Shown here: positions 8,019 to 55,477 of the stretch, piece by piece
Layout of the letters: every line of letters starts with the position of its first letter
Numbering within the stretch: the first letter of the stretch is position 1
Assembly: GCF_002159835.1 (NCBI RefSeq)
Contig: NZ_NFJL01000007.1
Location: 62,001-126,000, forward strand
Length of the DNA: 64,000 bases
From: Blautia sp. An249
Lineage (GTDB): Bacteria > Bacillota > Clostridia > Lachnospirales > Lachnospiraceae
Direction: 5' to 3'
Program-made: the position numbers and the translations under genes
The notes under the pieces: generated by a model
Database searches by the model: none
Told to the model about the DNA's origin: nothing
What the model saw: the letters and a program-made list of their open reading frames with translations, nothing else

Positions 8019-8042
8019 CAGGAAAGCAGGTGATTTGTCCAA

Positions 8043-9812: not shown

Positions 9813-9813
9813 A

Positions 9814-11184
9814 ATGCCAAAAGAGTACAGAACCATACAGGAAGTTGCAGGTCCTTTGATGCTGGTAAGAGGGGTAGAAGACGTAGCCTTTGATGAACTG
9901 GGCGAAATTGAACTGGCCAATGGGGAAACCCGCCGCTGCAGAGTACTGGAAATTAACGGACAGGACGCTCTGGTTCAGTTATTTGAGAACTCCACCGGTA
10001 TTAACCTTTCTAACAGTAAAGTAAGATTCCTGGGAAGAAACATGGAGCTGGGTGTATCTGCAGATATGCTGGGTCGTGTCTTCGATGGTCTGGGCCGTCC
10101 TATCGACGATGGTCCTGAAATTCTTCCGGATGAGAGAAGAGATGTAAATGGTCTGCCAATGAATCCGGCGGCCAGAAGTTACCCGGAAGAATTTATTCAG
10201 ACAGGTGTATCTGCCATTGACGGTCTGAATACTCTGGTACGTGGACAGAAACTTCCGATTTTCTCTGCTTCCGGTCTGCCCCATGCACAGTTGGCGGCAC
10301 AGATTGCCAGACAGGCAAAGGTACGGGGAAAAGACGAACAGTTCGCCGTTGTTTTCGCAGCTATGGGTATTACCTTTGAAGAATCCAACTTCTTTGTGGA
10401 AAGTTTTAGAGAGACGGGAGCGATTGACAGAACCGTTCTCTTTATTAACCTGGCTGACGACCCGGCAGTAGAACGTATCGCCACACCGAAAATGGCTTTG
10501 ACCGCAGCCGAGTATCTGGCTTTTGAAAAAGGAATGCACGTTCTGGTTATCCTGACCGATATTACCAACTATGCAGACGCTCTGCGTGAAGTATCTGCAG
10601 CCCGTAAGGAAGTTCCGGGACGCCGCGGTTATCCCGGTTATATGTATACAGACCTGGCTTCCATTTATGAGAGAGCCGGTCGTCAGAGAGGCAAGGACGG
10701 AAGTATCACCATGATTCCGATTCTGACCATGCCGGAAGAAGATAAGACGCATCCTATCCCTGACCTGACTGGTTATATTACGGAAGGTCAGATTATCTTA
10801 AGCCGTGAGTTATACAGAAAAGGCGTAACACCGCCCATCGACGTTCTGCCGTCTCTGTCCCGTCTGAAGGATAAGGGAATCGGAGAAGGAAAGACCCGTG
10901 CGGATCATTCCAATACCATGAATCAGCTGTTTGCCGCTTATGCCCGTGGTAAAGAGGCAAAAGAGCTGATGACCATTCTGGGAGAGGCAGCTCTTTCCGA
11001 TGTGGATTTGATTTATGCAAAATTTGCAGATGCCTTTGAGAAGGAATACGTATCTCAGGGTTACGACGCTAACCGTGATATTGAAGAAACTCTGGAAATT
11101 GGCTGGAAACTGCTTTCCATTTTACCGAGAAGCGAGCTGAAACGTATTGACGATAAATTCCTGGATATGTATTATGGGAAATAA
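9814..11184 (+). CDS. ntpB: V-type ATP synthase subunit B
   Basis: Non-catalytic nucleotide-site subunit of the A3B3 head. 456 residues. As expected for B subunits there is no canonical P-loop: the equivalent position reads [15 protein letters not shown]. The conserved C-terminal block [20 protein letters not shown] is present. AAAGGGGG lies just before the start codon inside the end of ntpA. Confidence 0.97.
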
Positions 11185-34757: not shown

Positions 34758-35975
34758 ATGATTCAGATTGCGGTACTGGGCTACGGCACTGTGGGAAGCG
34801 GTGTGGTAGAAGTAATTGAGACAAACCATAAAAGCATCAATAAAAATGCGGGAGAGGATATTAATATTAAATATGTGCTGGATTTAAGAGATTTTCCGGG
34901 AGATCCGGTGCAGAAGATTCTGGTACATGATTACGAAGAAATTGTAAATGATCCGGAAGTAAAAATCGTGGTAGAAGTAATGGGCGGTATTGAGCCGGCT
35001 TATACCTTTGTGAAACGTGCGCTGAATGCAGGGAAATCCGTAGTTACTTCCAATAAAGCCCTGGTGGCAAAACATGGTATTGAGCTGCTGCAGATTGCAA
35101 AGGATAAGAATATCAATTTCTTATTTGAAGCAAGCTGCGGCGGCGGAATCCCCATTATCCGCGCTCTGAATTCCTCTCTGACTGCCGATGAAATCGACGA
35201 GATCACAGGAATTTTAAACGGTACCACCAATTATATGATGTACCGTATGGATGTGGAAGGATGCCAGTTTGAAGACGCTTTAAAAGAAGCCAAGGAAAAA
35301 GGATATGCGGAAGCGGATCCCACCGACGACATTGAAGGATACGATGCATGCAGAAAGATTGCCATCCTTTCCTCACTGGCATTCGGACAGTTTGTAAATT
35401 ATGAAGAAGTCTATACGGAGGGAATTACCAAAATTACGGCAGAAGACATGAAATATGCCAAAGCGATGGGTAGAACCATTAAACTGCTGGCCAGCAGCAA
35501 AAAAGTCGGCGATGATTTCTACGTAATGACGGCTCCCTTCCTTCTGGGACCAAACAGCCCTCTGTTCTCTGTAAACGATGTGTTTAACGGCATTTTCGTT
35601 CACGGAAACGTACTGGGAGACGCTATGTTTTACGGAAGCGGCGCAGGAAAGCTTCCTACCGCCAGCGCCGTGGTAGCCGATGTGGTAGACGAGGCGAAAC
35701 ATCTGAACCGAAATATCATGATGAACTGGTCCAGTAAGAAACTGGAAATCATGGATGTGAACGATGCCGAGGGCAGATTCTTCGTTCGTATGAAGGGAAA
35801 TCTGGCGGACGATCTGGCAAAGGCAGAAGAACTCTTCGGCAAAGTTGAACCGTTGGAAGTTCCGGGTCTGGAAGGAGAATTCGGTTTCGTAACCTCTACG
35901 ATGAAAGAGGGCGAATATCACAAAAAGGCAGAACAGACAGACAAGATTCTGGGCATGATCCGAATCAAAGAATAG
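34758..35975 (+). CDS. hom: Homoserine dehydrogenase
   Basis: Reduces aspartate semialdehyde to homoserine, the branch towards threonine and methionine. 405 residues: N-terminal NAD(P) loop GYGTVGSGV (about 8-16), the conserved block GILNGTTNYMMYRM near residue 155, and a C-terminal ACT-like extension (about 335-405) that usually gives threonine feedback. GAGGAGAG lies upstream. It is in one group with the upstream ACT protein and the downstream phosphoglycerate-mutase-like gene (9 bases). Confidence 0.97.
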   Translation: MIQIAVLGYGTVGSGVVEVIETNHKSINKNAGEDINIKYVLDLRDFPGDPVQKILVHDYEEIVNDPEVKIVVEVMGGIEPAYTFVKRALNAGKSVVTSNKALVAKHGIELLQIAKDKNINFLFEASCGGGIPIIRALNSSLTADEIDEITGILNGTTNYMMYRMDVEGCQFEDALKEAKEKGYAEADPTDDIEGYDACRKIAILSSLAFGQFVNYEEVYTEGITKITAEDMKYAKAMGRTIKLLASSKKVGDDFYVMTAPFLLGPNSPLFSVNDVFNGIFVHGNVLGDAMFYGSGAGKLPTASAVVADVVDEAKHLNRNIMMNWSSKKLEIMDVNDAEGRFFVRMKGNLADDLAKAEELFGKVEPLEVPGLEGEFGFVTSTMKEGEYHKKAEQTDKILGMIRIKE

Positions 35976-35984
35976 GAGCAGGAT

Positions 35985-37190
35985 ATGAAATATATTGTTA
36001 TTCTGGGTGACGGAATGGCTGACTGGCCCCTGGAAGAACTGGGACAGAAGACGCCTCTGGAATATGCCCATACGCCGGTTATGGATGAACTGGCAAAACG
36101 ATCCGAGGTGGGGATGGCGCAGACGATCCCGGAGGGAATGAGCCCGGGAAGCGATACGGCAAACCTGTCGGTGATGGGATATGATCCCAGAAAATATTAT
36201 ACGGGACGTTCTCCGCTGGAGGCTTTAAGCATTGGCATTGATATGAAGCCGGAGGATATGGTTTTCCGCTGCAATATTGTGACTCTGACAGAAAAAGACG
36301 CTCCCTACGAGGAGCAGGTGATTCTGGATCACTGTTCGGATGAGATCTGTACGGAGGATTCCAGAGTATTGCTGGAAGCAGTTTTAAGCCAGATGGATTA
36401 TCCGGAATACGTCTTTTATCCGGGAACGGGCTACCGTCACTGCATGATCTGGGAAAAGGGACAAAAGCCCCGCCTGACGCCGCCCCATGACGTACTGGGG
36501 CAGACCATAGGACAGTATCTGCCGGATAATGAAGATTTTCTTGCCATGCAGAAAAAAAGTTATGAGATATTAAAAGATCATCCCATTAATGTGGAAAGAA
36601 AGAAAAAAGGGCTGCACCCGGCCAACAGCTTCTGGTTCTGGGGAGCCGGGACAAAACCGGCTCTGAGTTCTTTCTTTGAAGAACATCAGAAGAAGGGCGC
36701 CATGATTTCAGCGGTAGATCTGCTGAAAGGAATCGCTGTGGGAGCTTCTATGGATAATATTACCGTGGAGGGAGCCAACGGCGGGTTTGACACCAACTAT
36801 GAAGGGAAGGCGGACGCCGCAGTTAAGGCTTTAACTGAGGATGGTTATGATTTCGTCTATGTTCATGTGGAGGCTCCCGACGAAATGGGGCATCAGGGAC
36901 ATATTGACAAAAAGATAAAGTCCATTGAGTTTCTGGACAGCCGGGTGATTGCCCGGGTAAAAGCGGGACTGGATGCGTCGGGAGAAGACTACCGGATGAT
37001 GATACTGCCGGATCATCCCACGCCCATTGCAGCAAGAACCCATGTTTCCGATCCGGTTCCCTACCTTTTATACGACAGTAAAAATCCGCAGAACCATACC
37101 TGGAATTATAATGAGAGAGAAGTGCGGGCGGCTTCCGGCGAAACGGTCTGCGGATGGGATTTGATGAATCATTTGTTACAACAGAAATAA
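35985..37190 (+). CDS. ApgM-like phosphoglycerate mutase homologue, predicted homoserine kinase analogue
   Basis: Alkaline-phosphatase-superfamily enzyme of the archaeal-type cofactor-independent phosphoglycerate mutase family. 401 residues with the metal-binding start VILGDGMAD (Asp9), the phospho-acceptor serine in MSPGSDTANLS, and the later HVEAPDEMGHQG and MILPDHPTPI ligand blocks. It is placed between hom and lysC with no thrB in the window. Relatives in this position have been proposed on comparative-genomic grounds to phosphorylate homoserine. I therefore favour a threonine-pathway kinase role over glycolysis; this is inference. Confidence 0.85.
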   Translation: MKYIVILGDGMADWPLEELGQKTPLEYAHTPVMDELAKRSEVGMAQTIPEGMSPGSDTANLSVMGYDPRKYYTGRSPLEALSIGIDMKPEDMVFRCNIVTLTEKDAPYEEQVILDHCSDEICTEDSRVLLEAVLSQMDYPEYVFYPGTGYRHCMIWEKGQKPRLTPPHDVLGQTIGQYLPDNEDFLAMQKKSYEILKDHPINVERKKKGLHPANSFWFWGAGTKPALSSFFEEHQKKGAMISAVDLLKGIAVGASMDNITVEGANGGFDTNYEGKADAAVKALTEDGYDFVYVHVEAPDEMGHQGHIDKKIKSIEFLDSRVIARVKAGLDASGEDYRMMILPDHPTPIAARTHVSDPVPYLLYDSKNPQNHTWNYNEREVRAASGETVCGWDLMNHLLQQK

Positions 37191-37206
37191 AAGAGAAATA
37201 CCAGGC

Positions 37207-37249
37207 AAAAACAGCGCGATTTTCATAAAATGAAAAGAGGCTGTTTTTT
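37207..37249 (+). terminator. Terminator or attenuator immediately before lysC
   Basis: AAAAACAGC and GCTGTTTTTT enclose an inner TTTTCAT/ATGAAAA stem. The T tract ends only two bases before the GGGGGAGG ribosome-binding site of lysC. Confidence 0.8.
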
Positions 37250-37265
37250 GCCGGGGGAGGAAAAT

Positions 37266-38474
37266 ATGCTGATAGTAAAGAAATTTGGCGGCACGTCAGT
37301 GGCCAATAAAGAAAGAATTTTCAATGTGGCCAGACGCTGCATTGAGGAATATAAAAAGGGAAACGATGTGGTGGTGGTATTGTCCGCTATGGGAAAATAT
37401 ACGGATGAGCTCATTCGTATGGCGAAGGACATTCATGAGAAACCGCCGAAGAGAGAGATGGATATGCTGTTTACCATCGGAGAGCAGATGTCCGTGGCCC
37501 TGATGGCCATGGCTATGAATAAGCTGGGAGTTCCGGCTGTATCCCTGAATGCTTTTCAGGTGGCTATGCATACCACAAGCGCATATGGAAATGCACGACT
37601 GAAAAGAATTGATACGGAGCGGATTCAGACAGAACTGGAAAACCGTAAAATTGTAATTATTACCGGTTTCCAGGGAGTCAACAAATACGATGATTACACT
37701 ACCCTGGGAAGAGGAGGATCCGATACCACGGCGGTGGCCCTGGCTGCTGCGCTCAGGGCGGATGCCTGTGAGATTTATACAGATGTGGACGGAGTCTATA
37801 CAGCGGATCCCCGCCTGGTTCCCAATGCCAGAAAACTGAAAGAAATTACTTATGATGAGATGCTGGATCTGGCTACCCTGGGAGCCGGCGTGCTCCATAA
37901 CCGTTCTGTGGAAATGGCAAAGAAATACAATGTACCCCTTGTGGTGCGCTCCAGTTTAAATGAATCAGAAGGAACCGTTGTGAAGGAGGAAGTAAAAGTG
38001 GAGAGAATGTTAATCAGCGGAGTAGCGCTGGATAAAGATGCAGACAGAATTTCTGTAATCGGATTAAAGGATGAGCCGGGAGTTGCCTTTGCTTTATTTG
38101 ACACCCTGGCTGCGAAGAATATTAATGTGGATATGATTATCCAGTCCATTGGACGCCACGGTTCCAAAGATATAACCTTTACGGTGGATCACACGGAACT
38201 GGATGAAGCGGTTCGTGTTTTAAAAGAGAATCAGTCCCGTCTCGGATACCAGGAACTTTTATCTGAGACCAATGTGGCCAAGGTTTCTATTGTGGGCGCA
38301 GGAATGATGAGCAATCCGGGCGTAGCTGCCAAGATGTTTGAAAGCCTTTATAACGAACGGGTGAATATTAACATGATTGCCACTTCTGAGATTCGCGTAA
38401 CCGTACTGATTGACGTCAATGATGCAGAGAGAGCCCTTCGTGCCGTGCATGATGCCTTCGGCCTGGGAGAATAA
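37266..38474 (+). CDS. lysC: Aspartate kinase
   Basis: Phosphorylates aspartate at the head of the lysine/threonine/methionine pathway. 402 residues: KFGGTSV at about 5-11, GRGGSDTTAVALAAAL near 150, and two C-terminal ACT domains (about 260-402; VIGLKDEPGVAFALF and VSIVGAGMMSNPGVAAKMF) for feedback control. The ATG at 37266 has GGGGGAGG upstream. A terminator hairpin directly precedes it, separating it from apgM or regulating read-through. aroK follows after 6 bases. Confidence 0.96.
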   Translation: MLIVKKFGGTSVANKERIFNVARRCIEEYKKGNDVVVVLSAMGKYTDELIRMAKDIHEKPPKREMDMLFTIGEQMSVALMAMAMNKLGVPAVSLNAFQVAMHTTSAYGNARLKRIDTERIQTELENRKIVIITGFQGVNKYDDYTTLGRGGSDTTAVALAAALRADACEIYTDVDGVYTADPRLVPNARKLKEITYDEMLDLATLGAGVLHNRSVEMAKKYNVPLVVRSSLNESEGTVVKEEVKVERMLISGVALDKDADRISVIGLKDEPGVAFALFDTLAAKNINVDMIIQSIGRHGSKDITFTVDHTELDEAVRVLKENQSRLGYQELLSETNVAKVSIVGAGMMSNPGVAAKMFESLYNERVNINMIATSEIRVTVLIDVNDAERALRAVHDAFGLGE

Positions 38475-43749: not shown

Positions 43750-43788
43750 GAGAATAAAAGACAGAAAATGGGAAGAGAAGGTGCTGTA

Positions 43789-45372
43789 ATGGGAGAAAAA
43801 AGAAAATTTCAGGTTTCCTTTCTGAGAGAAAACTGCAGTGTAACTGTGGAAGAAGGCACAACGGTGCTGCAGGCGGAAATTGAAGGAGGGCTTCAGCCGG
43901 ATGCACCCTGCGGAGGGATGGGAACCTGCGGTAAATGTAAAGTCCACATTCTCAACGGGAGCCATCCGGGGATTCAGAAAGCCTGCTGTGTGAAGGTGAC
44001 AGAAGATCTGACCGTGGATTCCTCGGTGCGGGAAGAAGGGGTAGCAATTCTGGAAAACGGGGAGAGTCGTCTGGTGCCGGCTGATCCTATGAAAGCAGAG
44101 GGGCTTGACAACCGGTATCTGGCTGCCTTTGACGTAGGGACGACAACAGTGGTGGGCTATCTGTTGGACGGAGAGAGCGGAAAACAGATTGCCCATGCCA
44201 GTATGCTGAATCCTCAGTCTCAGTATGGAGCTGATGTAATTATGCGCTGCAATTACGTGCTCCAGAACGAAAAGGGGAAAGAGGCTTTAAGTCATGCCAT
44301 TCGAACAGCTATGAATCAGCTTCTGGAACGGCTGGCGAAAGATGCATCCATTGATAAGAAACAGATCAGCCAGGTTTCCTTTGTGGGAAACACCTGTATG
44401 CATCATCTGTTTCTGGAGCTGAGCCCCGATTCTGTGGTGAAGGCGCCCTACGTGCCGGCCATGAAAGAGCCTGTAACAGCAGAAGCCGGAGAATACGGAA
44501 TTGAAATCCACCCCCGGGGACGGCTGTTGGTTCTGCCAAACATCGGAGGATTTGTAGGAGCGGATACGGTAGGCTGTCTGCTGGCTACGGATTTTGATCA
44601 CCGGGAAAAGATTGCTTTAATGATTGATATAGGAACCAACGGGGAGCTGGTTCTGGGGAACAAAGAGAGAATGGTGGCCTGTTCCACCGCCGCCGGTCCG
44701 GCTTTTGAGGGAGCGAAGATTCACTGTGGGATGCGGGGTGCAAAAGGAGCCATTGATCATGTCTGGAAAGAGAATGGAGAACTGAGATATTCGGTTATTG
44801 GAAAAGGAGAGGCCAAAGGAATCTGCGGTTCCGGTCTGATGGATGCGGTGGCTCTGCTCTTAAAAGAAGAAATTGTAGAATCCTCCGGCCGTTTCTACGA
44901 TCGGGAGGAGCTGGAAACGGAGTTCGCGCGCAAGCAGGCAGACCGCTTAACAGAGGTGGAGGGGAAACCAGCTTTCTTTCTGGGAGGCCAGGTATTTCTG
45001 ACCCAGAAAGACATCCGGGAAGTGCAGCTTGCCAAAGGTGCGATGGCGGCGGGAATTACCCTGATGTGTCGGTATCTGGGAATTCAGAAGGAAGAAATTC
45101 AGGAGGTGCTGGTGGCGGGAGCCTTTGGAAATTATATGGATCCCAAAAGCGCCTGCGCCATAGGACTGATTCCCCAGGTTCTGCTAAAGAGGGTGCGCCC
45201 GGTGGGAAACGCGGCAGGCGAAGGGGCCAAACTGGCCGTGATAAACAGGGAAGAATTTCAGCATGCCGCTTCCATTTATGAAAAGGTGGATTTCCTGGAA
45301 CTGGCTGCAGAGAAAGATTTTCAGGATGTGTTTGTGGACGAACTGGAATTTCCTGATTATGAAGAAGAATGA
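43789..45372 (+). CDS. RACo-type [2Fe-2S]/ASKHA protein (DUF4445), reductive activator of corrinoid proteins
   Basis: Characterised relatives (RACo, RamA-like activators) use ATP to reduce inactive Co(II) corrinoid methyltransferases. About 527 residues. The N-terminal ferredoxin domain has CGGMGTCGKCKV (C-x5-C-x2-C) near residues 38-49 and a fourth cysteine in QKACCVKV. A linker follows, then an ASKHA-type domain with FDVGTTTVVGYLLD near 120 and DIGTNGELVL near 285. The ATG at 43789 follows AGAAGGTG; the ATG at 43768 is in frame. It is convergent with the enolase-like gene, and other corrinoid-enzyme relatives lie at 52.6 and 13.8 kb. The partner protein is not identified. Confidence 0.87.
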   Translation: MGEKRKFQVSFLRENCSVTVEEGTTVLQAEIEGGLQPDAPCGGMGTCGKCKVHILNGSHPGIQKACCVKVTEDLTVDSSVREEGVAILENGESRLVPADPMKAEGLDNRYLAAFDVGTTTVVGYLLDGESGKQIAHASMLNPQSQYGADVIMRCNYVLQNEKGKEALSHAIRTAMNQLLERLAKDASIDKKQISQVSFVGNTCMHHLFLELSPDSVVKAPYVPAMKEPVTAEAGEYGIEIHPRGRLLVLPNIGGFVGADTVGCLLATDFDHREKIALMIDIGTNGELVLGNKERMVACSTAAGPAFEGAKIHCGMRGAKGAIDHVWKENGELRYSVIGKGEAKGICGSGLMDAVALLLKEEIVESSGRFYDREELETEFARKQADRLTEVEGKPAFFLGGQVFLTQKDIREVQLAKGAMAAGITLMCRYLGIQKEEIQEVLVAGAFGNYMDPKSACAIGLIPQVLLKRVRPVGNAAGEGAKLAVINREEFQHAASIYEKVDFLELAAEKDFQDVFVDELEFPDYEEE

Positions 45373-45428: not shown

Positions 45429-46706
45429 TTAAAATCGCAGCAGAGGGGATATATCTGAGAGTCTGCAGCCGGGGCTGGCATCACAGACCCTCATCAGAAA
45501 ATTGAGTTTGTCGATGCGCTCGCCGGAGCGGGGAGCTCCGTTTTTAATAAAAGGAACAGAAAGTCCCACGGCCAGATCCATAACCACATCGCCAACTACG
45601 CCTCCGGAACGTCCGGACGGGGTGGCGAGCAGGTGGTTTTTCCTGGCAAAGTCATAGGCTTTTAGAGCCTCGGTGATGGTTCCCACCTGATTGGGTTTCA
45701 GGATAAAACCATCGATGGCAGCAAGGCGGCAGGCCTTCTGCAGGCGTTTCGGATTGGTGGCAATGAGATCGTCTCCCAGAAGCAAAGCGCCTGTAATCTC
45801 CTGGTGGGCTTTCTGCCAGCCGTCCCAGTCGTTTTCGTCTAATAAATCCTCGATGAAGACGAAGGGAAATTTCTCTGTGAGATTTTTTACATACCGGATT
45901 AGCTGCCCGGAGGAAACCTGATCTCCTTTCAGCAGATAGGTTCTGGAAACTGGATTGTACATTTCGCTGGAAGCACAGTCCAGGGCAAAGGCCATTTTTT
46001 CCGAGTAGCCGCACCTTGCAACGGCTTCCTGCATCAGTTCCAGGACGATTTCCGGATCTTCTGAAGGAGCCGCATAGCCGTAAGAGGGAGCAATTTCCGG
46101 ACTCTTTCCTCCCAGAAAGCGGGTGAGGACGGACTTTAGTTCCTGGAACGTGTTTACCCCCATTTCCACAGCCTCGTAAATATCGCAGGCTCCGTAAGGG
46201 AGAATCAGAAATTCGTTGAAAGGCTGTACCAGATCCGAATAGCGGCCTCCGTTTATGATGTTAAAGCTGGGGATGGGGACAGTTTCAATTTCTTTCTGAG
46301 CGATATAGGAATATAAGGGCTGACGGCAGCAGGCCGCGGCGGCCCGAAAAGCGGCGATAGAAACAGAGTAGATGGCATTGCCGCCCAGATTTTTTTTATT
46401 TTCTGTTCCGTCCAGTTCTATCATTCTGTGGTCAATGGCAGGAAGATCCAGCACATCCATTCCGATTAAAGCCGGAGCCAGCCGCCGGTTTACATTTTCC
46501 ACGGCTTTATGTACGCTCATTCCGTGATACTCTTTTGGGTTGTGATCCCTCAGCACAAAAGATTCATACATCCCTACGGAAGAACCGGTGGGAGCGCAGC
46601 CGGTACCTGAAAATCCCCCTTCTGTGATAACGTCTACTTCCACCATGGGACGGCATTTACAGTCGATGATCTGCCGCGCATGGATTGCCTGTATTCTGGA
46701 ATTCAT
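45429..46706 (-). CDS. Enolase paralogue with altered active site
   Basis: 425 residues, alignable with phosphopyruvate hydratase over its whole length: ARQIIDCKCRPMVEVDV at the N-terminus, IPSFNIINGG, FVFIEDLLDENDWDGW, LLLGDDLIATN and ILKPNQVGTITEA. Metal ligands (Asp of LDCASSEM, Glu of IEDLLDE, Asp of GDDL) and the two active-site lysines (ILKPNQ, FIKNGAP) are kept. The acid/base motif GDEGGF is replaced by APSYGYAAP, HRSGE by SGRSGG, and the substrate-loop SHA histidine is absent. Ordinary enolase activity is therefore unlikely. The gene overlaps the glycerate kinase stop codon by four bases. Confidence 0.88.
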   Translation of the reverse strand: MNSRIQAIHARQIIDCKCRPMVEVDVITEGGFSGTGCAPTGSSVGMYESFVLRDHNPKEYHGMSVHKAVENVNRRLAPALIGMDVLDLPAIDHRMIELDGTENKKNLGGNAIYSVSIAAFRAAAACCRQPLYSYIAQKEIETVPIPSFNIINGGRYSDLVQPFNEFLILPYGACDIYEAVEMGVNTFQELKSVLTRFLGGKSPEIAPSYGYAAPSEDPEIVLELMQEAVARCGYSEKMAFALDCASSEMYNPVSRTYLLKGDQVSSGQLIRYVKNLTEKFPFVFIEDLLDENDWDGWQKAHQEITGALLLGDDLIATNPKRLQKACRLAAIDGFILKPNQVGTITEALKAYDFARKNHLLATPSGRSGGVVGDVVMDLAVGLSVPFIKNGAPRSGERIDKLNFLMRVCDASPGCRLSDISPLLRF

Positions 46707-48133
46707 AGGAATTCTCCTTTCCGTTGGTTTTCGCTTTCTATTGCAGGAACGTATAAAATATTAAAGTCGCATAAATTGGTTCCTGTATTTCCGGTGAAAA
46801 CCGTATCGTTTATTTCTTTTAATGCTTCATAGCAGGAATGTCCGCGAAGAGCGGCATACAGATCCACCCCTTTTTGAAGAGCCCTCTGGAGGCTGGCTGA
46901 GTCTGTGAGCCCGCCGGCAACGGGAGTGGTACCGTCTGTTCCCTCAGAGTCGATGGAGAGCATACAGGCGCCCTTTGTTTTGGCCGCCAGAATGGCAAAG
47001 GCGGCGGTCAGCTCCTGGGAGGGGCCTCCGTGGCCGGTTATCAGGCGGTTGTCCAAAATCCGGGTCGTAACCTCTCCGGAACTTAAAAGAACACAGGGGG
47101 CCGGAAAAGGATTTCCGTAGGCCTGTATCTCCCGGGCGACAGAAGCGAAGAAAGTACCGGCATCCCTGCTCTCTCCTTCCAGAAAAGAAGTGAGGATGAA
47201 GGCAGGAATCCCCATGCTTTCGGCAATTTCTTTTGCGTAAATGCAGGAATCCAGTAAAGTGTTTAATAGAAAATAGGTGTTTTCCGGAAATTCCTTGGGA
47301 GTTTCGCACTCCGGGCCTGCCTGCATTAAGTATTCCACCACCCGTTTCGGAAGCCTGTCAGCCACGTGATAATCTTTTATGACTCTGCGTGCGTCCTCCA
47401 GGGTGGTTTTATCCGGCCCCATGGGAGTGCTGGCGTAATGTTCATAAGGGATTCCGATATTTCCGGTGGCGGGAGTCCCCACGGCATCGCTGATGCCAAA
47501 ACCAATCAGTTCTGCCCCCACAGACTGAATCCGCTTAGCCAGCATACCGCCGTTCATAGCGGAAATATGGCGGCGGATCGCGTTGATTTCGTAAATATTG
47601 GCGCCGGATTTTAACATAACGTCAGTGGTCTGGATTTCATCTTCCAGAGTAATACCCTCTATAGGACAACTCATTAAGGCAGAACTGCCTCCGCTGATAA
47701 CCACCAGGAACAGATCCTCCGGCCCGGCCTGATCCACCAGTTCCAGTATTTTCTGACAGGCCCGGTAGCCTTCCTGATTAGGAAGAGGATGTCCTCCCAC
47801 ATACACGTCCGTATGATGGAAAACATCCGTTTCCTCCGGAACTTTTACAATAACGATACCTTTTGTCAGGTAGTCTCCCAGGATTTCATCCACTGCCATG
47901 GCCATATGATTGCAGGCTTTGCCGGCCCCCAGCAGATACACGTGGCGTTTTTTGGAAAGATCCCAGGTTTTCGTTCCGATATGAAGGCAGGAGCCTTCCA
48001 TGGACATGATGCTTTTGATTCTCAGGGAGGCATCCAGCCTTTCCAGTGTTTTTTCTGTAATATCTAATACAATTTTTCTGGATTTCACGTCTCCGTGTGA
48101 GAGCAGTTCCTCATAATTACGTATTTTTCTCAT
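46703..48133 (-). CDS. Glycerate 2-kinase (MOFRL/DUF4147 family)
   Basis: Family enzymes phosphorylate glycerate, usually to 2-phosphoglycerate; older annotation sometimes reads hydroxypyruvate reductase. 476 residues: N-terminal DUF4147 domain with LLGAGKACNHMA near 70, GGHPLPNQEG near 112, VISGGSSALM near 145, and a C-terminal MOFRL domain with the segment SIDSEGTDGTTPVAGG. It is translationally coupled to the downstream enolase-like gene, whose substrate by homology would be 2-phosphoglycerate or an analogue. The 313-base divergent gap to the 48447 gene carries operator-like palindromes. Confidence 0.9.
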   Translation of the reverse strand: MRKIRNYEELLSHGDVKSRKIVLDITEKTLERLDASLRIKSIMSMEGSCLHIGTKTWDLSKKRHVYLLGAGKACNHMAMAVDEILGDYLTKGIVIVKVPEETDVFHHTDVYVGGHPLPNQEGYRACQKILELVDQAGPEDLFLVVISGGSSALMSCPIEGITLEDEIQTTDVMLKSGANIYEINAIRRHISAMNGGMLAKRIQSVGAELIGFGISDAVGTPATGNIGIPYEHYASTPMGPDKTTLEDARRVIKDYHVADRLPKRVVEYLMQAGPECETPKEFPENTYFLLNTLLDSCIYAKEIAESMGIPAFILTSFLEGESRDAGTFFASVAREIQAYGNPFPAPCVLLSSGEVTTRILDNRLITGHGGPSQELTAAFAILAAKTKGACMLSIDSEGTDGTTPVAGGLTDSASLQRALQKGVDLYAALRGHSCYEALKEINDTVFTGNTGTNLCDFNILYVPAIESENQRKGEFL

Positions 48134-48399: not shown

Positions 48400-48446
48400 T
48401 AACGTACAGAAGAAGAATGAAAAAATACGAAAAGGAGAGAATGCCC

Positions 48447-49568
48447 ATGGGGAAAAGAACGGAATTTTTATATTTGTCAGAGAAAGATACCATAGAAGCC
48501 GGGGTTCTGGATGTGGAAATGTGTATCGACAATGCTCAGGAAGTATTTAAGCTGTTAAGCATTGGCGATTATCTCATGGGAGGAAGCAGCCATAACAGTC
48601 ATGGGTTAGGGCTGGTTTTTCCGAAAGAGTCTCCCTTCCCCAATATGCCTCTGGCAGGTCCGGATCGCCGCTTTGTGGCCATGCCGGCGTATCTGGGAGG
48701 CGACTTTGATGTCTGCGGAAACAAATGGTATGGATCCAACGCCGCCAATCCGAAAAAGGGTCTCCCGCGTTCTGTACTGACTCTGAATTTAAATGATAAG
48801 GATACAGGAGAACCTCTGGCCTTTCTGTCAGCGAATCTGCTGAGCGCGGCAAGGACAGGAGCTGTTCCGGGAGTAGCGGCCCGGTATTTGGCCAGAAAAG
48901 ATTCTGAGACGGTGGCGGTTCTGGGGTGCGGACAGATCAATCGCTCCTGTCTGAGAAATATCCTGTCCCAGCTTCCGAAGGTGAAGAATATTGTCTGCTA
49001 CGATATTTTTGAAACTGCATCCAAAAAGTATCTGGACTGGGCCAGGGAGGAGCTGAAGGTGGATGGCCGTACCACAATGGACGTGCAGGACGCTTTAAAG
49101 GACGCGGATGTGGTTACAGTGGCTGCCTCCCGCCTGAAACCTCTTTATATAAAAGATGAGTGGCTGAAAGAAGGGGTGACGCTTCTGATTACCGGTCCGG
49201 TGCAGACCGATGCTTCTTACTGGATGAGCACCAATTTAATTTATGACAATACAAAGCTTCATGAAACCTATGTGCAGGAAGCGGTGGAGTCCGGCGATAA
49301 GGAACAGTATTATGACGGGGTTATCGGAGGGCCTATATATCGTCTCATTGACGCCGGAAAAATGCCGAAACTGCAGGATTCCGTAAGTCTCGGGGATGTG
49401 ATCCTGGGACAGAAGGAAGGGAGGAAATCAGAAAAAGAAAGAGTGACTTTTGTGGCATGCGGAATGGCTGCTTTCGATGTTGGGCTTGGATATGCCCTGT
49501 ATCAGAAAGCTCTGGAGAAAGGAATCGGAACGAAATTATTACTCTGGGATTCCCCTTTCCAGGCATAA
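48447..49568 (+). CDS. Ornithine cyclodeaminase/mu-crystallin family enzyme
   Basis: NAD(P)-binding enzyme family that includes ornithine cyclodeaminase, alanine dehydrogenase and ketimine reductases. 373 residues. ANLLSAARTGAVPGVAARYL near 130-150 is the family substrate/Arg block, followed by the Rossmann loop VAVLGCGQINRSC. The C-terminal part has GDVILGQKEGR. The ATG at 48447 lies 9 bases from AAGGAG; ATGs at 48417 and 48441 are in-frame alternatives. Some databases label close relatives tyramine oxidase subunit B, which I cannot verify here. First gene of the TRAP cluster. Confidence 0.82.
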   Translation: MGKRTEFLYLSEKDTIEAGVLDVEMCIDNAQEVFKLLSIGDYLMGGSSHNSHGLGLVFPKESPFPNMPLAGPDRRFVAMPAYLGGDFDVCGNKWYGSNAANPKKGLPRSVLTLNLNDKDTGEPLAFLSANLLSAARTGAVPGVAARYLARKDSETVAVLGCGQINRSCLRNILSQLPKVKNIVCYDIFETASKKYLDWAREELKVDGRTTMDVQDALKDADVVTVAASRLKPLYIKDEWLKEGVTLLITGPVQTDASYWMSTNLIYDNTKLHETYVQEAVESGDKEQYYDGVIGGPIYRLIDAGKMPKLQDSVSLGDVILGQKEGRKSEKERVTFVACGMAAFDVGLGYALYQKALEKGIGTKLLLWDSPFQA

Positions 49569-49617: not shown

Positions 49618-50670
49618 ATGAAGAAAAAGTTGAAAAACAAGATCATAACAGGAGGACTGCTTATCTTCTGTATTCTGGCATCCGGCCTGGCCGGCTGTGG
49701 GGTTGAAAGAAGTGAGGAAGGCGAAGAAACGGCTGCTGTTGGTGAAACGGAAACTTCGTCCGATGCGGAAGTATCTCTGAGTTTTGCCCATAATGTGGCG
49801 GTAGGCGGTGCGGAAGACCAGGCCATTGCCCGTTTTGCAGACCGGGTAAAGGAACTGTCAGACGGAAAAATGGAAATTGTAGTATACGGAAGCGGTCAGC
49901 TTGGAAATGAGAGGGACTTAATTGAAGGCGTGCAGCTTGGAACCATTGATATGGCTATGAATACTTCCGCCTACCTTTCTAATCTGGTTCCTCAGTTCGG
50001 TATGCTGGATCTTCCATTTTTATATGAAGATTATGAGGATGTCAGAGCAAAACTGGAAGGGGAACCGGGAGAAGAACTGAAGGAAAAAATGGTTGAGGAA
50101 CAGGGGATTCGTGTCCTGGATTACTGGAATTCCGGGTTCCGTGTGATGATGACCAAAAGCGCCCCTATTCATTCAGCCTCCGATTTAAAAGGAAGAAATA
50201 TGAGAGCCCCGGAAGTAGATGTTTATGTGGATATGTTTAAGGCTCTGGGAGCAAACGCCACACCCATACCCTTTGGCGAGGTTTATACTTCCATACAGAC
50301 AGGAGTCGTTGACGGCGTAGAGGTATGTGCGGAAGAAATGTATACCATGAAGTTTTATGAGGTTGGAAAATACATAGCAGTTACCAATCATATCTTCAGT
50401 TCCCAGATTCCGGTCATTAATGAGGATGTTTATCAGGGGCTGACGGAAGAGCAAAGAGAAATCCTGGATCAGGCCATGAGTGAAGCCACTGACTGGGAAT
50501 GGGAGTACTTTATGGAAGCGGATGCGGAAGCGTTAAAAGAGATGGAGGCGGAAGGAATTGAGATTACCTATCCGGAACGTCAGGAGTTTATGGATGCATG
50601 TGCGTCTATGAAAGAGGAATATGCAGAGAAATACGACGCGAAGGATTTACTGGAGAAACTGGATGCCTGA
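49618..50670 (+). CDS. TRAP transporter substrate-binding lipoprotein (DctP family)
   Basis: Extracytoplasmic binding component of a tripartite carboxylate transporter. 350 residues with lipobox LAGC (Cys27) and an acidic linker to about residue 52. The DctP domain has LGNERDLIEGVQLGTIDMAM near 98-117, the segment YWNSGFRVMM containing the conserved carboxylate-binding Arg, and LKGRNMRAPEVDVYVDMFKA. This arginine points to an organic-acid ligand. AAAGGAGGAGG precedes the ATG. It is followed by dctQ and dctM in the usual order. Confidence 0.93.
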   Translation: MKKKLKNKIITGGLLIFCILASGLAGCGVERSEEGEETAAVGETETSSDAEVSLSFAHNVAVGGAEDQAIARFADRVKELSDGKMEIVVYGSGQLGNERDLIEGVQLGTIDMAMNTSAYLSNLVPQFGMLDLPFLYEDYEDVRAKLEGEPGEELKEKMVEEQGIRVLDYWNSGFRVMMTKSAPIHSASDLKGRNMRAPEVDVYVDMFKALGANATPIPFGEVYTSIQTGVVDGVEVCAEEMYTMKFYEVGKYIAVTNHIFSSQIPVINEDVYQGLTEEQREILDQAMSEATDWEWEYFMEADAEALKEMEAEGIEITYPERQEFMDACASMKEEYAEKYDAKDLLEKLDA

Positions 50671-50705
50671 GAAAGAACGAAGACGGTAGTTAGGAGGGAT
50701 GTCTG

Positions 50706-51230
50706 TTGAGTGAAGCTGCCATGAAAAGGATTGATAAAGGCATGCTCAGGCTGAAGCAGGCCATAGAGTGGATAATTTTCTTGCTTTTTATTGTTGTGGT
50801 ACTTTCCGGTTTTGTGCAGGTAATCGGCCGGGAGTTTCTTCACAAGTCGTTTATCTGGAGCGAAGAACTGTGCCGTTATGCCGGGGTCTGGCTTGTTATG
50901 CTGGGAACCGCTGTGCTTTTCGGGAGTGATTCTCATATTTGTCTGGACTATTTTCTTCTGAAATTTCCGGAAAAAGTCCAGAAGTGCATTATGCTGGTAA
51001 ACTATGTGGTTATGATTTTTACTATGGGATGGTTTTCTTACTACACCATTGTCATGATACAGGGGACGGGAACAACGCCATCTCCTGCGTTGGGAGTGCC
51101 TATGGGAATTATTTATCTCTGTCTGGTTTTGTGCGGGATTTTTTCTATTGTATTTCTGCTTTATTCGGCAGTGAAATATTATTTTTACCCAAAATCTGAG
51201 GCAGAAGAGGAAGGAGGGGATACCAGGTGA
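50706..51230 (+). CDS. TRAP transporter small membrane subunit (DctQ family)
   Basis: Four-helix membrane partner of DctM. 174 residues with helices near 20-45, 58-78, 97-117 and 133-158, and the DctQ-type motif FIWSEELCRYAGVWLVMLGTA-like block. TTG at 50706 is placed 8 or so bases after GGAGGG; the ATG at 50721 is an alternative. The stop codon overlaps the dctM GTG. Confidence 0.9.
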   Translation: MSEAAMKRIDKGMLRLKQAIEWIIFLLFIVVVLSGFVQVIGREFLHKSFIWSEELCRYAGVWLVMLGTAVLFGSDSHICLDYFLLKFPEKVQKCIMLVNYVVMIFTMGWFSYYTIVMIQGTGTTPSPALGVPMGIIYLCLVLCGIFSIVFLLYSAVKYYFYPKSEAEEEGGDTR

Positions 51231-52501
51231 CCATAGCAATTCTGGTAATTGTATTTTTTGTTTTTCTGTTCCTGGGAATGCCCATTGGAGCTGCCCTTGG
51301 CATTTCTTCCATTTTATCTCTTTTGTCGGCAGATCTGCCGGGGATCCTTTTATCCCAGCGGACGTTTGTGCAGTTGGACGCCTTTTCTCTGATGGCGGTG
51401 CCGATTTTCATTCTGGCAGGAGAGGTAATGGCCTCTGCCGGAATTACCAAGAAAATTGTAGAATTTGCTTCTTCCCTGGTAGGTCATTTAACGGCCGGCC
51501 TGGCTCAGACCAGTATTCTGGGAGCCATGCTGATGGCCGGGATTTCCGGCTCCGCAGCGGCCGATGCCTCTGCTCTCGGGGGAATGTTGATTCCGGCTAT
51601 GAAGGACGAAGGGTATGATGATGATTTTGCGGCGGCAGTGATTGCCTCCTCCAATGTAATCGGCCCCATTATTCCGCCCAGTATTATGATGATTATCTAT
51701 GGTTCCATGACCAGCGTCTCCATTGGAGATATGTTTGTGGGAGGCGTAGTTCCGGGAATCTGCTTCGGTCTTGCCCTGATGGTGATTACCTATCTGATTT
51801 CCAGAAAGAGAAATATTCCGAAGAAAAAACGTGCCACCCTGAAAGAAATCTGGGCAGCTTTCCGAAAGGCGATCTGGGCGCTGCTGACTCCGGTGATTAT
51901 TGTGGGCGGAATTTTATCAGGAATGTTCACTCCTACGGAGTCAGGAGTTATGGCTGTGGTTTATGCCCTTGCGGTGGGACTCATAAGCAGAACCATTAAA
52001 CTGAAAGATATAAAACCCATTGTAATACGGGCGGCTTACGCCACCACAACGCCCATGTTTCTGATAGGAATCTCTTCGGTTTTCGGATGGATACTGGCCC
52101 GCAATAATTTCCCGGTAATGGCCGGAAATCTTTTAAGTTCCATTACCACCAACCCCTGTATTTTTATTCTGATTATCTGGGCCTTTTATCTGTTCATCGG
52201 CTGCTTTATGGAGGATACGGCGGCAATGATTATTTTAACGCCGGTTCTGGCGCCTATCGCCGCATCCTATGGCTTTGATCCTGTTCATTTCGGCGTCTTT
52301 ACCGTTGTGACTCTGCTCATTGGATGCGTGACTCCTCCGGTGGGAATGCTGTTGTTTATTACAAGTTCCATTGCGGAGATTAAACTGGCAAAACTGTATA
52401 AAACCATTGTACCCTTTGCGGTGACGCTGGCGCTGATTGCCCTTGTGATGGGGCTGGTTCCCCAGATGGTAACCCTGCTGCCTTCCGTTATTCACGGATA
52501 A
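51227..52501 (+). CDS. TRAP transporter large permease (DctM family)
   Basis: Ion-coupled permease of the TRAP system. 424 residues, about 12 helices, with conserved GMPIGAALGISSI near 20, AGISGSAAADASALGGMLIPAM near 105 and SNVIGPIIPPSIMMIIYG near 140. The GTG start overlaps the dctQ stop (GTGA). With dctP and dctQ it makes a complete TRAP transporter, normally driven by Na+. Confidence 0.95.
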   Translation: MTIAILVIVFFVFLFLGMPIGAALGISSILSLLSADLPGILLSQRTFVQLDAFSLMAVPIFILAGEVMASAGITKKIVEFASSLVGHLTAGLAQTSILGAMLMAGISGSAAADASALGGMLIPAMKDEGYDDDFAAAVIASSNVIGPIIPPSIMMIIYGSMTSVSIGDMFVGGVVPGICFGLALMVITYLISRKRNIPKKKRATLKEIWAAFRKAIWALLTPVIIVGGILSGMFTPTESGVMAVVYALAVGLISRTIKLKDIKPIVIRAAYATTTPMFLIGISSVFGWILARNNFPVMAGNLLSSITTNPCIFILIIWAFYLFIGCFMEDTAAMIILTPVLAPIAASYGFDPVHFGVFTVVTLLIGCVTPPVGMLLFITSSIAEIKLAKLYKTIVPFAVTLALIALVMGLVPQMVTLLPSVIHG

Positions 52502-52563: not shown

Positions 52564-53751
52564 ATGACGCATGAGGAAATGATTTACCGGGCGATTCGGG
52601 GAGAAGACTTAAAGGAGTTGCCCTTCGTACCGAGACTGGATTTGTGGTATCAGGGAAATAAACTGCAGAATACCCTCCCGGACAAATATAAAAATGCCTC
52701 TTTAGTGGAAATTCTGGATGATTTGGGACTGGGTTATCACTGTGTGGTACCTGATTTCAGTACGGTAGAGTCCCTGGAAGACTATGCAGATGTGGGACTG
52801 GGGATTCACCGGACCCAATCTGTGTTTTACACAGTGGAATTTGATGTGGAAAGAAAAGTGGAACAGGACGGACCGAAAATCAACACCGTTTATCACACCC
52901 CTTACGGAGATTTAACGACCCAGATTCACTATGACGAACAAATGCGGCTTTCGGGAATTACCCAGCCTCTGGTGACTAAGTTTGCTATTCAGGAGGAAGA
53001 GGATTACCAAAAGCTGGCCTATATTTTTGAACGGGGAAGGGTGAAACCCAGATATGAATACTACGACCGGCTGAAAGAGAAAATCGGTGACCGGGGGCCT
53101 GTGGTGGGATTCCAGTACGAGGGAGGTTCCCCCATGCACGCGCTGTTAAAGGAGATGACGCCCTTTGAAACCTTCTGGTACAATACAGTGGACTGTCCGG
53201 AGCTTATGGAGGGCGCCTGTGAGAGCATCCGGAAACTGTTAAGGGAGATTCTGATGGTGATGGCCGACTCTCCCTGTGAGATTTTATATGTGGGGGCAAA
53301 TTACGATTCTATGTCTACCAACCCCAGGTTTTTCCGGGACTTTATTACAGAAGAGCTGAAATGGAGTTCTCAGTATCTCCATAGTAAAGGGAAACTTCTG
53401 CTGACTCATACCGACGGAGACAATACAGGGCTGCTGGAGGAATATGTGAAAGCAGAGGTTGATGTGGCAGATTCCATCTGTCCGGCGCCCATGACGAAAC
53501 AAAGTCTGGGAGAAATCCGGGAAGCTTTTGGCGGTAAAATTGCTATCTGGGGAGGAATTGCGGCCATCAGTGTTCTGGAGGACAGTATGACTGATTATGA
53601 GTTTGAGAAATATCTGGATAAAACTCTGGAAGCGGCAGGAGACGGTCGGCGGCTGATTTTGTCCATTGCGGATTCCACACCTCCGGCGGCCAAATTTGAC
53701 CGGCTGCTGACTATTATGAAGAAAGTAAAAGAATTCGGGGCGGTAAAATAA
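52564..53751 (+). CDS. URO-D/MtaA-family protein
   Basis: Uroporphyrinogen-decarboxylase-fold protein. In anaerobes many such proteins are corrinoid or methyl-CoM-type methyltransferases (MtaA, MtbA, CmuA) rather than haem enzymes. 395 residues, TIM barrel. The zinc motif of MtaA is H-x-C with a distant Cys; here the equivalent position reads THTDGD and a single Cys follows in ADSICPAP, so the H-x-C pair is not intact. GGAGAGCGGAT precedes the ATG. It ends the TRAP cluster and is followed by a terminator. Substrate unknown. Confidence 0.82.
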   Translation: MTHEEMIYRAIRGEDLKELPFVPRLDLWYQGNKLQNTLPDKYKNASLVEILDDLGLGYHCVVPDFSTVESLEDYADVGLGIHRTQSVFYTVEFDVERKVEQDGPKINTVYHTPYGDLTTQIHYDEQMRLSGITQPLVTKFAIQEEEDYQKLAYIFERGRVKPRYEYYDRLKEKIGDRGPVVGFQYEGGSPMHALLKEMTPFETFWYNTVDCPELMEGACESIRKLLREILMVMADSPCEILYVGANYDSMSTNPRFFRDFITEELKWSSQYLHSKGKLLLTHTDGDNTGLLEEYVKAEVDVADSICPAPMTKQSLGEIREAFGGKIAIWGGIAAISVLEDSMTDYEFEKYLDKTLEAAGDGRRLILSIADSTPPAAKFDRLLTIMKKVKEFGAVK

Positions 53752-53815: not shown

Positions 53816-54664
53816 TTAAAGACCCAGATAAAATCCCTGACTGAGAATGGTTTCTGTGCGTTCCAGCATTTTACGGGATTCTTCCGGATTGGCCTGCGCA
53901 ATGGCTGCAATGAGAAAGTTGGTCAGGCACAGGGGCGCTGCGTAAGAGTTTTTGTAATAGACGCTGGAGATGGTGCAGGGCAGCAGGACATCTCCGTAGC
54001 CGGTAACGGAAGTGATGTTCTGGCTGGTGATGAGAATGATTTTCACTCCGCAGCTTCGGAACCAGGAGAGCATGGTGGTGGCAGTTTTTGAGTACCGGGG
54101 AAACAGGTAAGCGATGCAGACGTCTCCCGGCTGGGCGAAATTAATCTCCTCTGGGTAAATCATTCCTGTGGAGGAAATCAGGTGCACGTTGGGTTTGATT
54201 TCTCCGATTCGGGAGGCCAGATAATGGGCAATGGAAAAGGAAGCCCGCATCCCCAGTACGAAGAGGTTTTTCGCCTGGGAAATCAGTTGGATGGCCTGTT
54301 CCAGATCTTCGTCTTTTTGCAGGGAGAGGGTCTTATTGATGTTGTTCAGATCGTTGGAAAAGGATTGCTGGAGAAGCTGGTTTTTGGGAATCTGCAGATT
54401 CGTCTTATCGAAACGATCCGGCAGAGCCACTTTGGTTCGTATATTATCCTGAATATCTTTCTGCATATCGCTGTAGCCGTGATAGCCGAGTACCCGGGAG
54501 AAACGGATGACCGTAGTGGTGCTTACGCCGATTTTTTCGGCCAGATCTTCCAGGGTATCAAAGGCGATGTTATCCTGATTGTCGAGCAGATAATTGGCGA
54601 TGGATTTCTGGGAATGGGTGAAAGAATCATAGTTCTCTGTGAGTTTCTGAAAAAAATTATCCAT
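53816..54664 (-). CDS. RpiR-family transcriptional regulator
   Basis: 282 residues. The N-terminal HTH_6 domain (DNFFQKLTENYDSFTHSQKS, then LAEKIGVSTTTVIRFSRVLG) is followed by a C-terminal SIS domain (about 125-255, LFVLGMRASFSIAHYLASRI) that binds phosphosugars in the family. The ATG at 54664 has AGGAGG upstream; the ATG at 54682 is upstream of that site. Convergent with the TRAP cluster, which it may regulate. Its own promoter is at 54697-54725. Confidence 0.92.
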   Translation of the reverse strand: MDNFFQKLTENYDSFTHSQKSIANYLLDNQDNIAFDTLEDLAEKIGVSTTTVIRFSRVLGYHGYSDMQKDIQDNIRTKVALPDRFDKTNLQIPKNQLLQQSFSNDLNNINKTLSLQKDEDLEQAIQLISQAKNLFVLGMRASFSIAHYLASRIGEIKPNVHLISSTGMIYPEEINFAQPGDVCIAYLFPRYSKTATTMLSWFRSCGVKIILITSQNITSVTGYGDVLLPCTISSVYYKNSYAAPLCLTNFLIAAIAQANPEESRKMLERTETILSQGFYLGL

Positions 54665-54696
54665 GAAGAACCTCCTGTTCACTGGTGTATTTTCCT

Positions 54697-54808: not shown

Positions 54809-55477
54809 GTGAACTTACCGGAAATTCGTGAGATGAAAGGTTCTGCCAGGAACCAGATTTATGAAAATATGAAGCAATGGATCATTGAGGGAACATTAAA
54901 GCCGGGAGAGAAAATTTCCGACTTTGACATTGCGTCCCATTTCCATGTGAGCCGCACGCCGGTAAGGGAGGCATTTCAGCAGCTGGAAATGCAGAAACTG
55001 ATCCGTTCCTATCCGGGAAAAGCCACCTTTGTCACAGAGATGGAGACGGAAAATATCGGGCAGTGGTATCTGCCGATGATAAGCCTTCAGCAGCTTGCGG
55101 CCTCCATGGCTGTGGAAAAGGTGACAGAAGAACAGATTTTGCAGCTAAAGGAGAAGGGCGAAGTCTTTTCCCGTCTTGTGGAAAGCAGGGGGGAGCCTAT
55201 GGAACTTCTCCAGGCAGACAGAGACTTTCATGAATATATTCTGGAGATTGCGGGAAACGATTATATTATTGATTTCTGCAATACTCTCTGGACGCACATT
55301 CTGCGTCTGGAATACCGGTTTTTTAAGGAAACGGCTACTCTGGAAGAATCAGTCTGGGATCATCAGGAGCTGATTAAGGATTTGGAAATCCGGGACAGTT
55401 TTACCATTTCCATGATTACGAAAAGACACTGGGAGAGAACAGCCATGGAAATTGAATTTATAAACCGTTTGGGCTGA
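54809..55477 (+). CDS. GntR-family regulator with FCD domain
   Basis: 222 residues. Winged helix at about 13-75 (GEKISDFDIASHFHVSRTPVREAFQQLE is the typical GntR recognition block), followed by an all-helical FCD effector domain with metal-ligand-type DRDFHEYIL near 131. FCD regulators usually respond to carboxylic acids or amino acids. The GTG start at 54809 follows GGGAGGG. It is adjacent to the TRAP/RpiR region and could share control of it; the operator is unproven. Confidence 0.92.
   Translation: MNLPEIREMKGSARNQIYENMKQWIIEGTLKPGEKISDFDIASHFHVSRTPVREAFQQLEMQKLIRSYPGKATFVTEMETENIGQWYLPMISLQQLAASMAVEKVTEEQILQLKEKGEVFSRLVESRGEPMELLQADRDFHEYILEIAGNDYIIDFCNTLWTHILRLEYRFFKETATLEESVWDHQELIKDLEIRDSFTISMITKRHWERTAMEIEFINRLG

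Follow-up and report, generated by a model that had tools for sequence, protein, structure and literature searches.

The window, a 64,000-nt stretch of the Blautia sp. An249 genome, carries an enolase paralogue that has lost three active-site residues of enolase, and that belongs to a subfamily in which these losses recur and whose genes are accompanied, at every locus found, by a gene for a DUF4147/MOFRL kinase homologue. We propose, with slightly less than even confidence, that the paralogue is a catalytically competent, non-canonical enolase that acts after this kinase in a module of two enzymes. The two genes are:

45429 to 46706, minus strand: enolase paralogue, 425 aa, lacking the counterparts of Glu211, His373, and His159 (ORF, profile, and residue alignment).
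46703 to 48133, minus strand: DUF4147/MOFRL kinase homologue (class II glycerate 2-kinase family), 476 aa, presumed partner (profile match).

A preliminary description of this DNA, made from its letters, had placed the first ORF at the correct coordinates and left out its strand.

Judged by its sequence, the window paralogue is an enolase homologue, and a member of the enolase subgroup of the superfamily. It scores 369 bits against the NCBI enolase equivalog model TIGR01060 (cut-off 300), and passes both Pfam enolase models: PF03952 (Enolase_N) with 151.9 bits against 35, and PF00113 (Enolase_C) with 211.8 against 21.5. The MR/MLE subgroup, with the galactonate and L-talarate/galactarate dehydratases, belongs to the same superfamily and has relatives near the pair at three other loci (L129, L133, and L146); the paralogue differs in carrying the full Enolase_N/Enolase_C pair, while its MR_MLE_C score (27.0 bits) falls under the 29.4 cut-off. 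An AF2 model (mean pLDDT 94.2, pTM 0.91) was compared with known structures by Foldseek, with the matches re-aligned and re-ranked by VIA-align: all 50 listed PDB matches are enolases (Z 52.5-56.7), the best among those listed being the M. tuberculosis E204A enolase with PEP (Z 56.7, rmsd 1.4 over 419 residues, 34% identity). The likeness to enolase (EC 4.2.1.11) thus predicted takes in fold, length, and two-domain layout, and by alignment it extends to the metal ligands, Lys345, Lys396, Arg374, and Glu168 (yeast numbering). Pairwise dN between the window paralogue and three close relatives is low (0.23-0.27), with dS saturated (not computable) in two of these pairs and 2.9 in the third, which indicates purifying selection; together with the presence of relatives in 17 further genomes, the low dN rules out a misassembly or pseudogene.

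The positions at which the active site has changed, and that of the putative base, are as follows:

46239 to 46241, minus strand: codon of Tyr156, replacing yeast His159 / M. tuberculosis His154 of the INGGxH motif (alignment).
46080 to 46085, minus strand: codons of Ser208 and Tyr209, replacing the acid Glu211 (yeast) / Glu204 (M. tuberculosis) and the following Gly (alignment).
45696 to 45698, minus strand: codon of Lys337, the conserved C2-proton base (yeast Lys345 / M. tuberculosis Lys335; alignment).
45612 to 45614, minus strand: codon of Gly365, replacing His373 of the HRSGE loop (alignment).

In the yeast numbering, the three lost residues (Glu211, His159, and His373) are ones that act on the side of the C3 hydroxyl. 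In the M. tuberculosis enzyme, Lys335 is reported to take the C2 proton and Glu204 to act on the hydroxyl of 2-phosphoglycerate, which His154 contacts; Arg364 holds the phosphate, Lys386, Glu163, Asp310, and Lys335 contact the carboxylate, one magnesium (MgA) sits on Asp241, Glu283, and Asp310, and the other (MgB) is coordinated by Ser42 (PMC10619443). Alanine mutants of Asp241, Glu163, Glu204, and Lys335 are reported in the same source as non-functional, and S42A as retaining ~5% activity (PMC10619443). By alignment, the window paralogue keeps Lys337, Arg366, Lys388, Glu165, Asp243, Glu286, and Asp312, with Thr40 standing for Ser42, and is without Glu204, His154, and the HRSGE His of the M. 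tuberculosis enzyme.

Much of this agrees with the preliminary description. The motifs it listed as preserved (IEDLLDE, GDDL, ILKPNQ, and FIKNGAP) are all present in the translation, and GDEGGF is indeed replaced by APSYGYAAP with loss of the acid: the counterpart of Glu211 is Ser208 in a MAFFT alignment and Tyr209 in a phmmer alignment, neither of them acidic. The HRSGE loop, which it gave as lost, is lost in part: SHRSGE becomes SGRSGG in register, so that the phosphate-binding Arg and the Ser stay, while His373 and the final Glu are gone. The replacement of His159 by Tyr156 is a third active-site loss, beyond those described.

The same pattern is found throughout a subfamily of 23 sequences from 20 loci in 18 genomes, the window genome included. 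At the Glu211 column there are 15 Ser, 7 Tyr, and one Gly, and none of the 23 has an acid there or in either adjoining column; the His159 position holds Tyr in 17, Asn in five, and His in one, and the His373 position Gly in 18 and Gln in five. Glu168, Lys345, Arg374, and the three metal ligands (Asp243, Glu286, and Asp312 in the window protein) are kept in all 23. Lys396 (window Lys388) is certain in 22; in the remaining sequence (L161) its position falls at a frameshift and is aligned as kept. All three of the lost residues are present, by contrast, in each of 14 ordinary enolases, picked for comparison from those already collected, and these in turn are without the subfamily marks Arg19, Thr40, Val44, Gly109, Pro338, and Gly369. 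Besides losing Glu211, His373, the final HRSGE Glu and, with one exception, His159, the subfamily differs from enolase in having KPNQ (with Pro338) for K[VL]NQ and TGxSVG for SGASTG in loop 1. Repeated over 23 sequences, the replacement pattern is neither chance nor sequencing error. The residues found at the lost positions vary between clades of the subfamily, and its members may therefore differ in substrate. As a group they provide a natural test of the need for Glu211 in the enolase mechanism.

The subfamily is monophyletic, and apart from ordinary enolases: 17 of its members form one branch against the 14 comparison enolases with support 100/100, as do all 23 (SH-aLRT 100). The search for members covered the window's phylum, plus one peptide-pattern scan of genome contigs, in samples that overlap one another and in which the window genome is counted: positive genomes make up 10 of the 397 sampled from the family (a set that overlaps an earlier one with 4 of 200), 5 of the 392 from the order, 2 of the 391 from the class, and 3 of the 398 from the phylum. 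They stand apart from the others by score in the order sample (397 bits or more, against 304 or less) and in the phylum sample (482 or more, against 384 or less). Targeted family and order samples around the matches gave 1 of 6, 2 of 7, 1 of 8, and 1 of 7 positive, all of them genomes already known. Among the best 80 of 581 matches in the peptide-pattern scan the sole close relative was L032, labelled Lachnospiraceae, which is 70% identical to the window paralogue. Two damaged loci are kept in the counts as they stand: the paralogue of L161 (genome G1309, 9367-10566) is frameshifted near its C-terminus, and at L145 (genome G1156, 6907-8674) the kinase gene is truncated and a neighbouring dehydrogenase gene (see below) is broken. 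No description of the subfamily was found in the open-licence PMC literature on enolase paralogues with glycerate kinase/MOFRL, or in that on enolase residues, enolase loss, carboxyphosphonoenolpyruvate synthase, and the name given to the OCD-family dehydrogenase (see below).

The strongest clue to the type of substrate is the adjacent and sometimes fused kinase, which the preliminary description overlooked, and its presence is a further difference between the subfamily and enolase. In the window the kinase gene lies upstream of the paralogue on the same strand, and its 3′ end overlaps the paralogue by 4 bp. By tblastn, a kinase homologue is present at all 20 subfamily loci; at 18 of them, counting the truncated copy at L145, it directly adjoins the paralogue in the same orientation or is fused to it, and at the other two (L147 and L160) it is on the opposite strand, within about 2 kb. 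Kinase and paralogue are joined in frame, as a single 895-aa ORF, in two genomes (G189 and G1156); these fusions are sisters in the tree, and so probably reflect a single event.

The window kinase has both Pfam domains of the class II glycerate 2-kinases (DUF4147, 211.5 bits against 23; MOFRL, 89.2 against 28.3), and can be aligned over ~400 residues with such members as Thermoproteus tenax GarK, 2b8n, and 1x3l; it differs in a longer N-terminus and in the motifs given below. Its scores against the two NCBIfam glycerate 2-kinase models are low (171.4 bits against 550, and 139.7 against 670), which might be read as a sign of divergence. This was dropped: a second, ordinary-looking DUF4147 kinase of the same genome, 34% identical to the partner, is also under both cut-offs (273.9 and 231.5 bits), and the models seem too narrow to decide the partner's class. 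Where the partner does differ is in sequence, by a comparison in full with this one ordinary kinase: GKACN.MA, EGTDGT, and TGNTGTN.CD are common to 19 subfamily kinases and missing from it, and it has the GGRNQE and DGTDGPTDAAGG motifs of the glycerate kinase 2b8n. The T. tenax class II kinase is reported to phosphorylate D-glycerate at C2, yielding 2-phosphoglycerate only, and to be absolutely specific for glycerate (PMC2063504). A homologue of such an enzyme beside or fused to the paralogue points to a 2-phospho acid as the paralogue's substrate. The kinase also offers a direct handle on what this is, by way of the 2-hydroxy acids that it phosphorylates.

Fusion raises the possibility that the paralogue is a non-catalytic partner, a regulatory, structural, or moonlighting subunit of the kinase or of a hetero-oligomer. 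Complex formation would suit the fusions, as it would the three loci (L114, L128, and L146) with two paralogues in tandem after one kinase; the tandem copies of L128 and L146 sit in different branches of the tree, so that their duplication is older than both genomes. A pseudo-enzyme would not, however, need the metal ligands, base lysine, and phosphate arginine that are invariant in all 23 sequences, and we regard such a role as very unlikely.

A dedicated 2-phosphoglycerate dehydratase is a second alternative: the paralogue would serve glycerate catabolism together with the kinase, with Glu165 or some other group taking the place of Glu211. Several observations speak for this. The 20 members that were scored singly all pass the TIGR01060 cut-off (369 bits for the window protein and 339-393 for the 19 others, against 300), and matches to the model extend to all 23; the partner is of the glycerate 2-kinase family, whose T. 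tenax member is reported as glycerate-specific (PMC2063504); and some hosts appear to have no other enolase. An ordinary enolase was found in 14 of 17 tested host genomes (the L032 genome being outside this test), and none in the other three: G143, G1281, and G1384, listed as 77, 91, and 94% complete. This is a good argument that the paralogue can replace enolase, although at that completeness the three may be either incomplete drafts or real losses. Loss of enolase has a reported precedent, an identifiable eno gene being missing from 18 Butyrivibrio genomes, and enolase-negative rumen bacteria are described in the same report as a puzzle (PMC6912079). Both the three enolase-negative hosts and the 20 passing scores count as well against our preferred explanation, the non-canonical enolase.

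Set against a dedicated enolase is the active site itself: neither Glu211 nor His373 is kept in any of the 23 sequences, and the E204A mutant of the M. tuberculosis enzyme is reported as non-functional (PMC10619443). The window genome, moreover, already has both a second DUF4147 kinase and an ordinary enolase (G000:C1:339901-341157), 41% identical to the paralogue. The preliminary description would have been contradicted had the paralogue been the genome's only enolase; here, at least, it is not. On balance we consider a dedicated 2-phosphoglycerate dehydratase unlikely.

As a separate observation, 59 of the 392 order genomes, some of them listed as 99-100% complete, gave nothing with the paralogue as query at E <= 0.001, and so showed no enolase homologue, G005, G028, G041, and G052 among them; search heuristics or masking could contribute to this number, which agrees with the enolase loss reported in Butyrivibrio (PMC6912079).

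Despite its passing TIGR01060, the window paralogue is not filed here as EC 4.2.1.11, since the general acid of enolase is absent. With all 20 singly scored members above the NCBI cut-off, annotation pipelines probably misname the subfamily as enolase, and may count it as the glycolytic enzyme. Enolases are generally assumed to share one reaction and are named automatically, an assumption that the subfamily may break; telling its members from glycolytic enolase affects metabolic reconstructions, given the enolase-negative rumen bacteria that have been reported (PMC6912079).

The non-canonical enolase that we tentatively favour would work as follows; we infer the order of steps, the substrate type, and the product. 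The DUF4147/MOFRL kinase would phosphorylate the 2-hydroxyl of a glycerate-like 2-hydroxy acid with a different or larger group at C3. The paralogue would then bind the product, a 2-phospho acid, in the manner of enolase with 2-phosphoglycerate, with the carboxylate on two Mg2+ ions (one held by Asp243, Glu286, and Asp312, the second with Thr40 beside it) and on Lys388, and the phosphate on Arg366, and Lys337 would remove the C2 proton. With Glu211, His159, and His373 gone, we suggest that the group at C3 departs without help from Glu211, to give a phosphoenol acid: it might leave more readily than a hydroxyl does, or be a hydroxyl to which the retained Glu165 gives a proton. The reported glycerate specificity of the T. 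tenax kinase (PMC2063504) disfavours a C3-modified substrate, unless the changed motifs of the subfamily kinases matter. The retention of Glu165 is also against the proposal, the counterpart E163A mutant of the M. tuberculosis enzyme being reported as non-functional (PMC10619443).

The preliminary description had suggested that the protein may still enolise an alpha-proton but catalyse another reaction: epimerisation, isomerisation, or elimination. Its first part is consistent with the retained base, metals, and phosphate and carboxylate contacts, and its second with the loss of the C3-side residues, but nothing favours isomerisation; among the possible courses after enolisation we rank elimination first, ahead of epimerisation or other reactions. 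A more specific form of this idea seems possible, if on the whole doubtful: a portable phosphorylate-then-eliminate module, in which the 2-phospho acid loses from C3 some group that differs from glycerate's own hydroxyl, such as sulfite, a thiolate, an amine (simple or quaternary), or the hydroxyl of a substituted C3, and yields PEP or a substituted phosphoenol acid directly. If real, such a module would open a new route into central metabolism, with recovery of the phosphate invested, and would give the enolase subgroup a second reaction. Carboxyphosphonoenolpyruvate synthase, of phosphonate antibiotic biosynthesis, is an enolase homologue with another reaction and substrate, and so a precedent for an altered enolase paralogue.

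Elimination could also take the phosphate itself: from a phosphorylated hydroxy acid in which a second carboxylate adjoins the acidic proton, the paralogue would expel the group that the kinase had supplied. Glu211 would be dispensable with phosphate as the leaving group, and some clusters carry transporters of the TRAP or TTT families, which often serve di- and tricarboxylates. The retained Arg366 and Thr40 suggest, however, that the phosphate sits as it does in 2-phosphoglycerate, and this is the least probable of the readings considered here, a long shot.

Neighbouring genes were searched for further clues to the substrate, by tblastn (E <= 1e-6) over stretches of 8.4-19.5 kb at the other loci and over 17 kb of the window. 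Beyond the kinase gene, the window has the following:

48417 to 49568, plus strand: ornithine cyclodeaminase/mu-crystallin (OCD) family dehydrogenase, matching NF004848, “tyramine oxidase subunit B” (profile match).
49618 to 52501, plus strand: TRAP transporter genes DctP, DctQ, and DctM, possibly for substrate uptake (profile match).
52564 to 53751, plus strand: URO-D family protein, with relatives at L144 and L145, where there are TRAP genes too (homology).
53816 to 54682, minus strand: RpiR-type regulator, HTH_6+SIS (domains).
54809 to 55477, plus strand: GntR/FCD regulator, with relatives at L156 and L159 (54 and 57% identical; homology).

Within the stretches searched, no neighbour besides the kinase is universal across the 20 loci, so none names a substrate. 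OCD relatives occur at 10 loci, one of them the broken copy at L145; these are 10 of the 14 loci in the window protein's clade, with none at the six loci of the other two clades. RpiR-type regulators are likewise found at 10 of the 20 loci, the window included. Genes for 2-hydroxyacid dehydrogenases are present at three (PGDH-like at L147 and L160; less closely related, 33% identical, at L157), and LarA-like genes at four: a clear one at L032, one at L156 that is 30% identical to it, and weak assignments at L128 and L161. Three loci have a galactonate-dehydratase-like MR/MLE enzyme (L129:11103-12269, L133:5931-7097, and L146:16463-17626); the first two are 70 and 67% identical to the third, whose closest PDB sequence is 2poz. 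Two loci have a hydantoinase A+B pair (hydantoinase A being named by eye), with a hydantoinase-B end at L115, and two have a glutamate-dehydrogenase-like gene, also named by eye. Transporters vary between loci (TRAP, TTT, Na+/H+-antiporter type, AbgT, DUF401, NCS1, MFS_2, and ABC), so the context points to no single substrate. Rather, the clusters would appear to handle 2-hydroxy acids made from amino, 2-oxo, or sugar acids. In those of the OCD type, an amino or 2-oxo acid from the OCD dehydrogenase might be converted to the 2-hydroxy acid by a 2-hydroxyacid dehydrogenase or LarA-type racemase.

The LarA-type racemase homologues, and the relatives of enolase-superfamily sugar-acid dehydratases, in some of these clusters are also compatible with a different reaction, in which the paralogue is an epimerase or racemase of a 2-phospho-2-hydroxy acid: Lys337 would take the C2 proton and reprotonation would follow from the other face, with no elimination. 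The parts needed for C2-proton removal are kept, and the E211Q mutant of yeast enolase reportedly still exchanges this proton. Of the invariant residues specific to the subfamily, though, Arg19 is the one putative new acid/base that was recognised, and epimerisation needs no phosphorylation step; an epimerase or racemase thus seems quite unlikely.

Two more specific links were considered and set aside. For a sulfite-releasing pathway (from cysteate or sulfolactate), no sulfite-handling gene was recognised among the annotated neighbours. For a link to methyl transfer, through the URO-D gene and two further window genes, relatives of the window URO-D are found at just three of the 20 loci (L156 has another URO-D family gene, further off), and RACo relatives at the window alone. 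These further genes are of some interest in their own right: an MTTB-family methyltransferase gene (PF06253; 13774-16525, plus strand), adjoining an MFS gene, and one for a RACo-type corrinoid activation protein (43768-45372, plus strand), beside the paralogue. They are a possible non-pyrrolysine methyl-transfer system, of which the URO-D gene at 52564 might be part.

Elsewhere in the window, genes for a homoserine dehydrogenase, a phosphoglycerate-mutase-like metalloenzyme (PF10143), and an amino-acid-kinase/ACT (aspartokinase-like) protein stand in a row (34758-38474, plus strand); the metalloenzyme may serve threonine synthesis rather than glycolysis.
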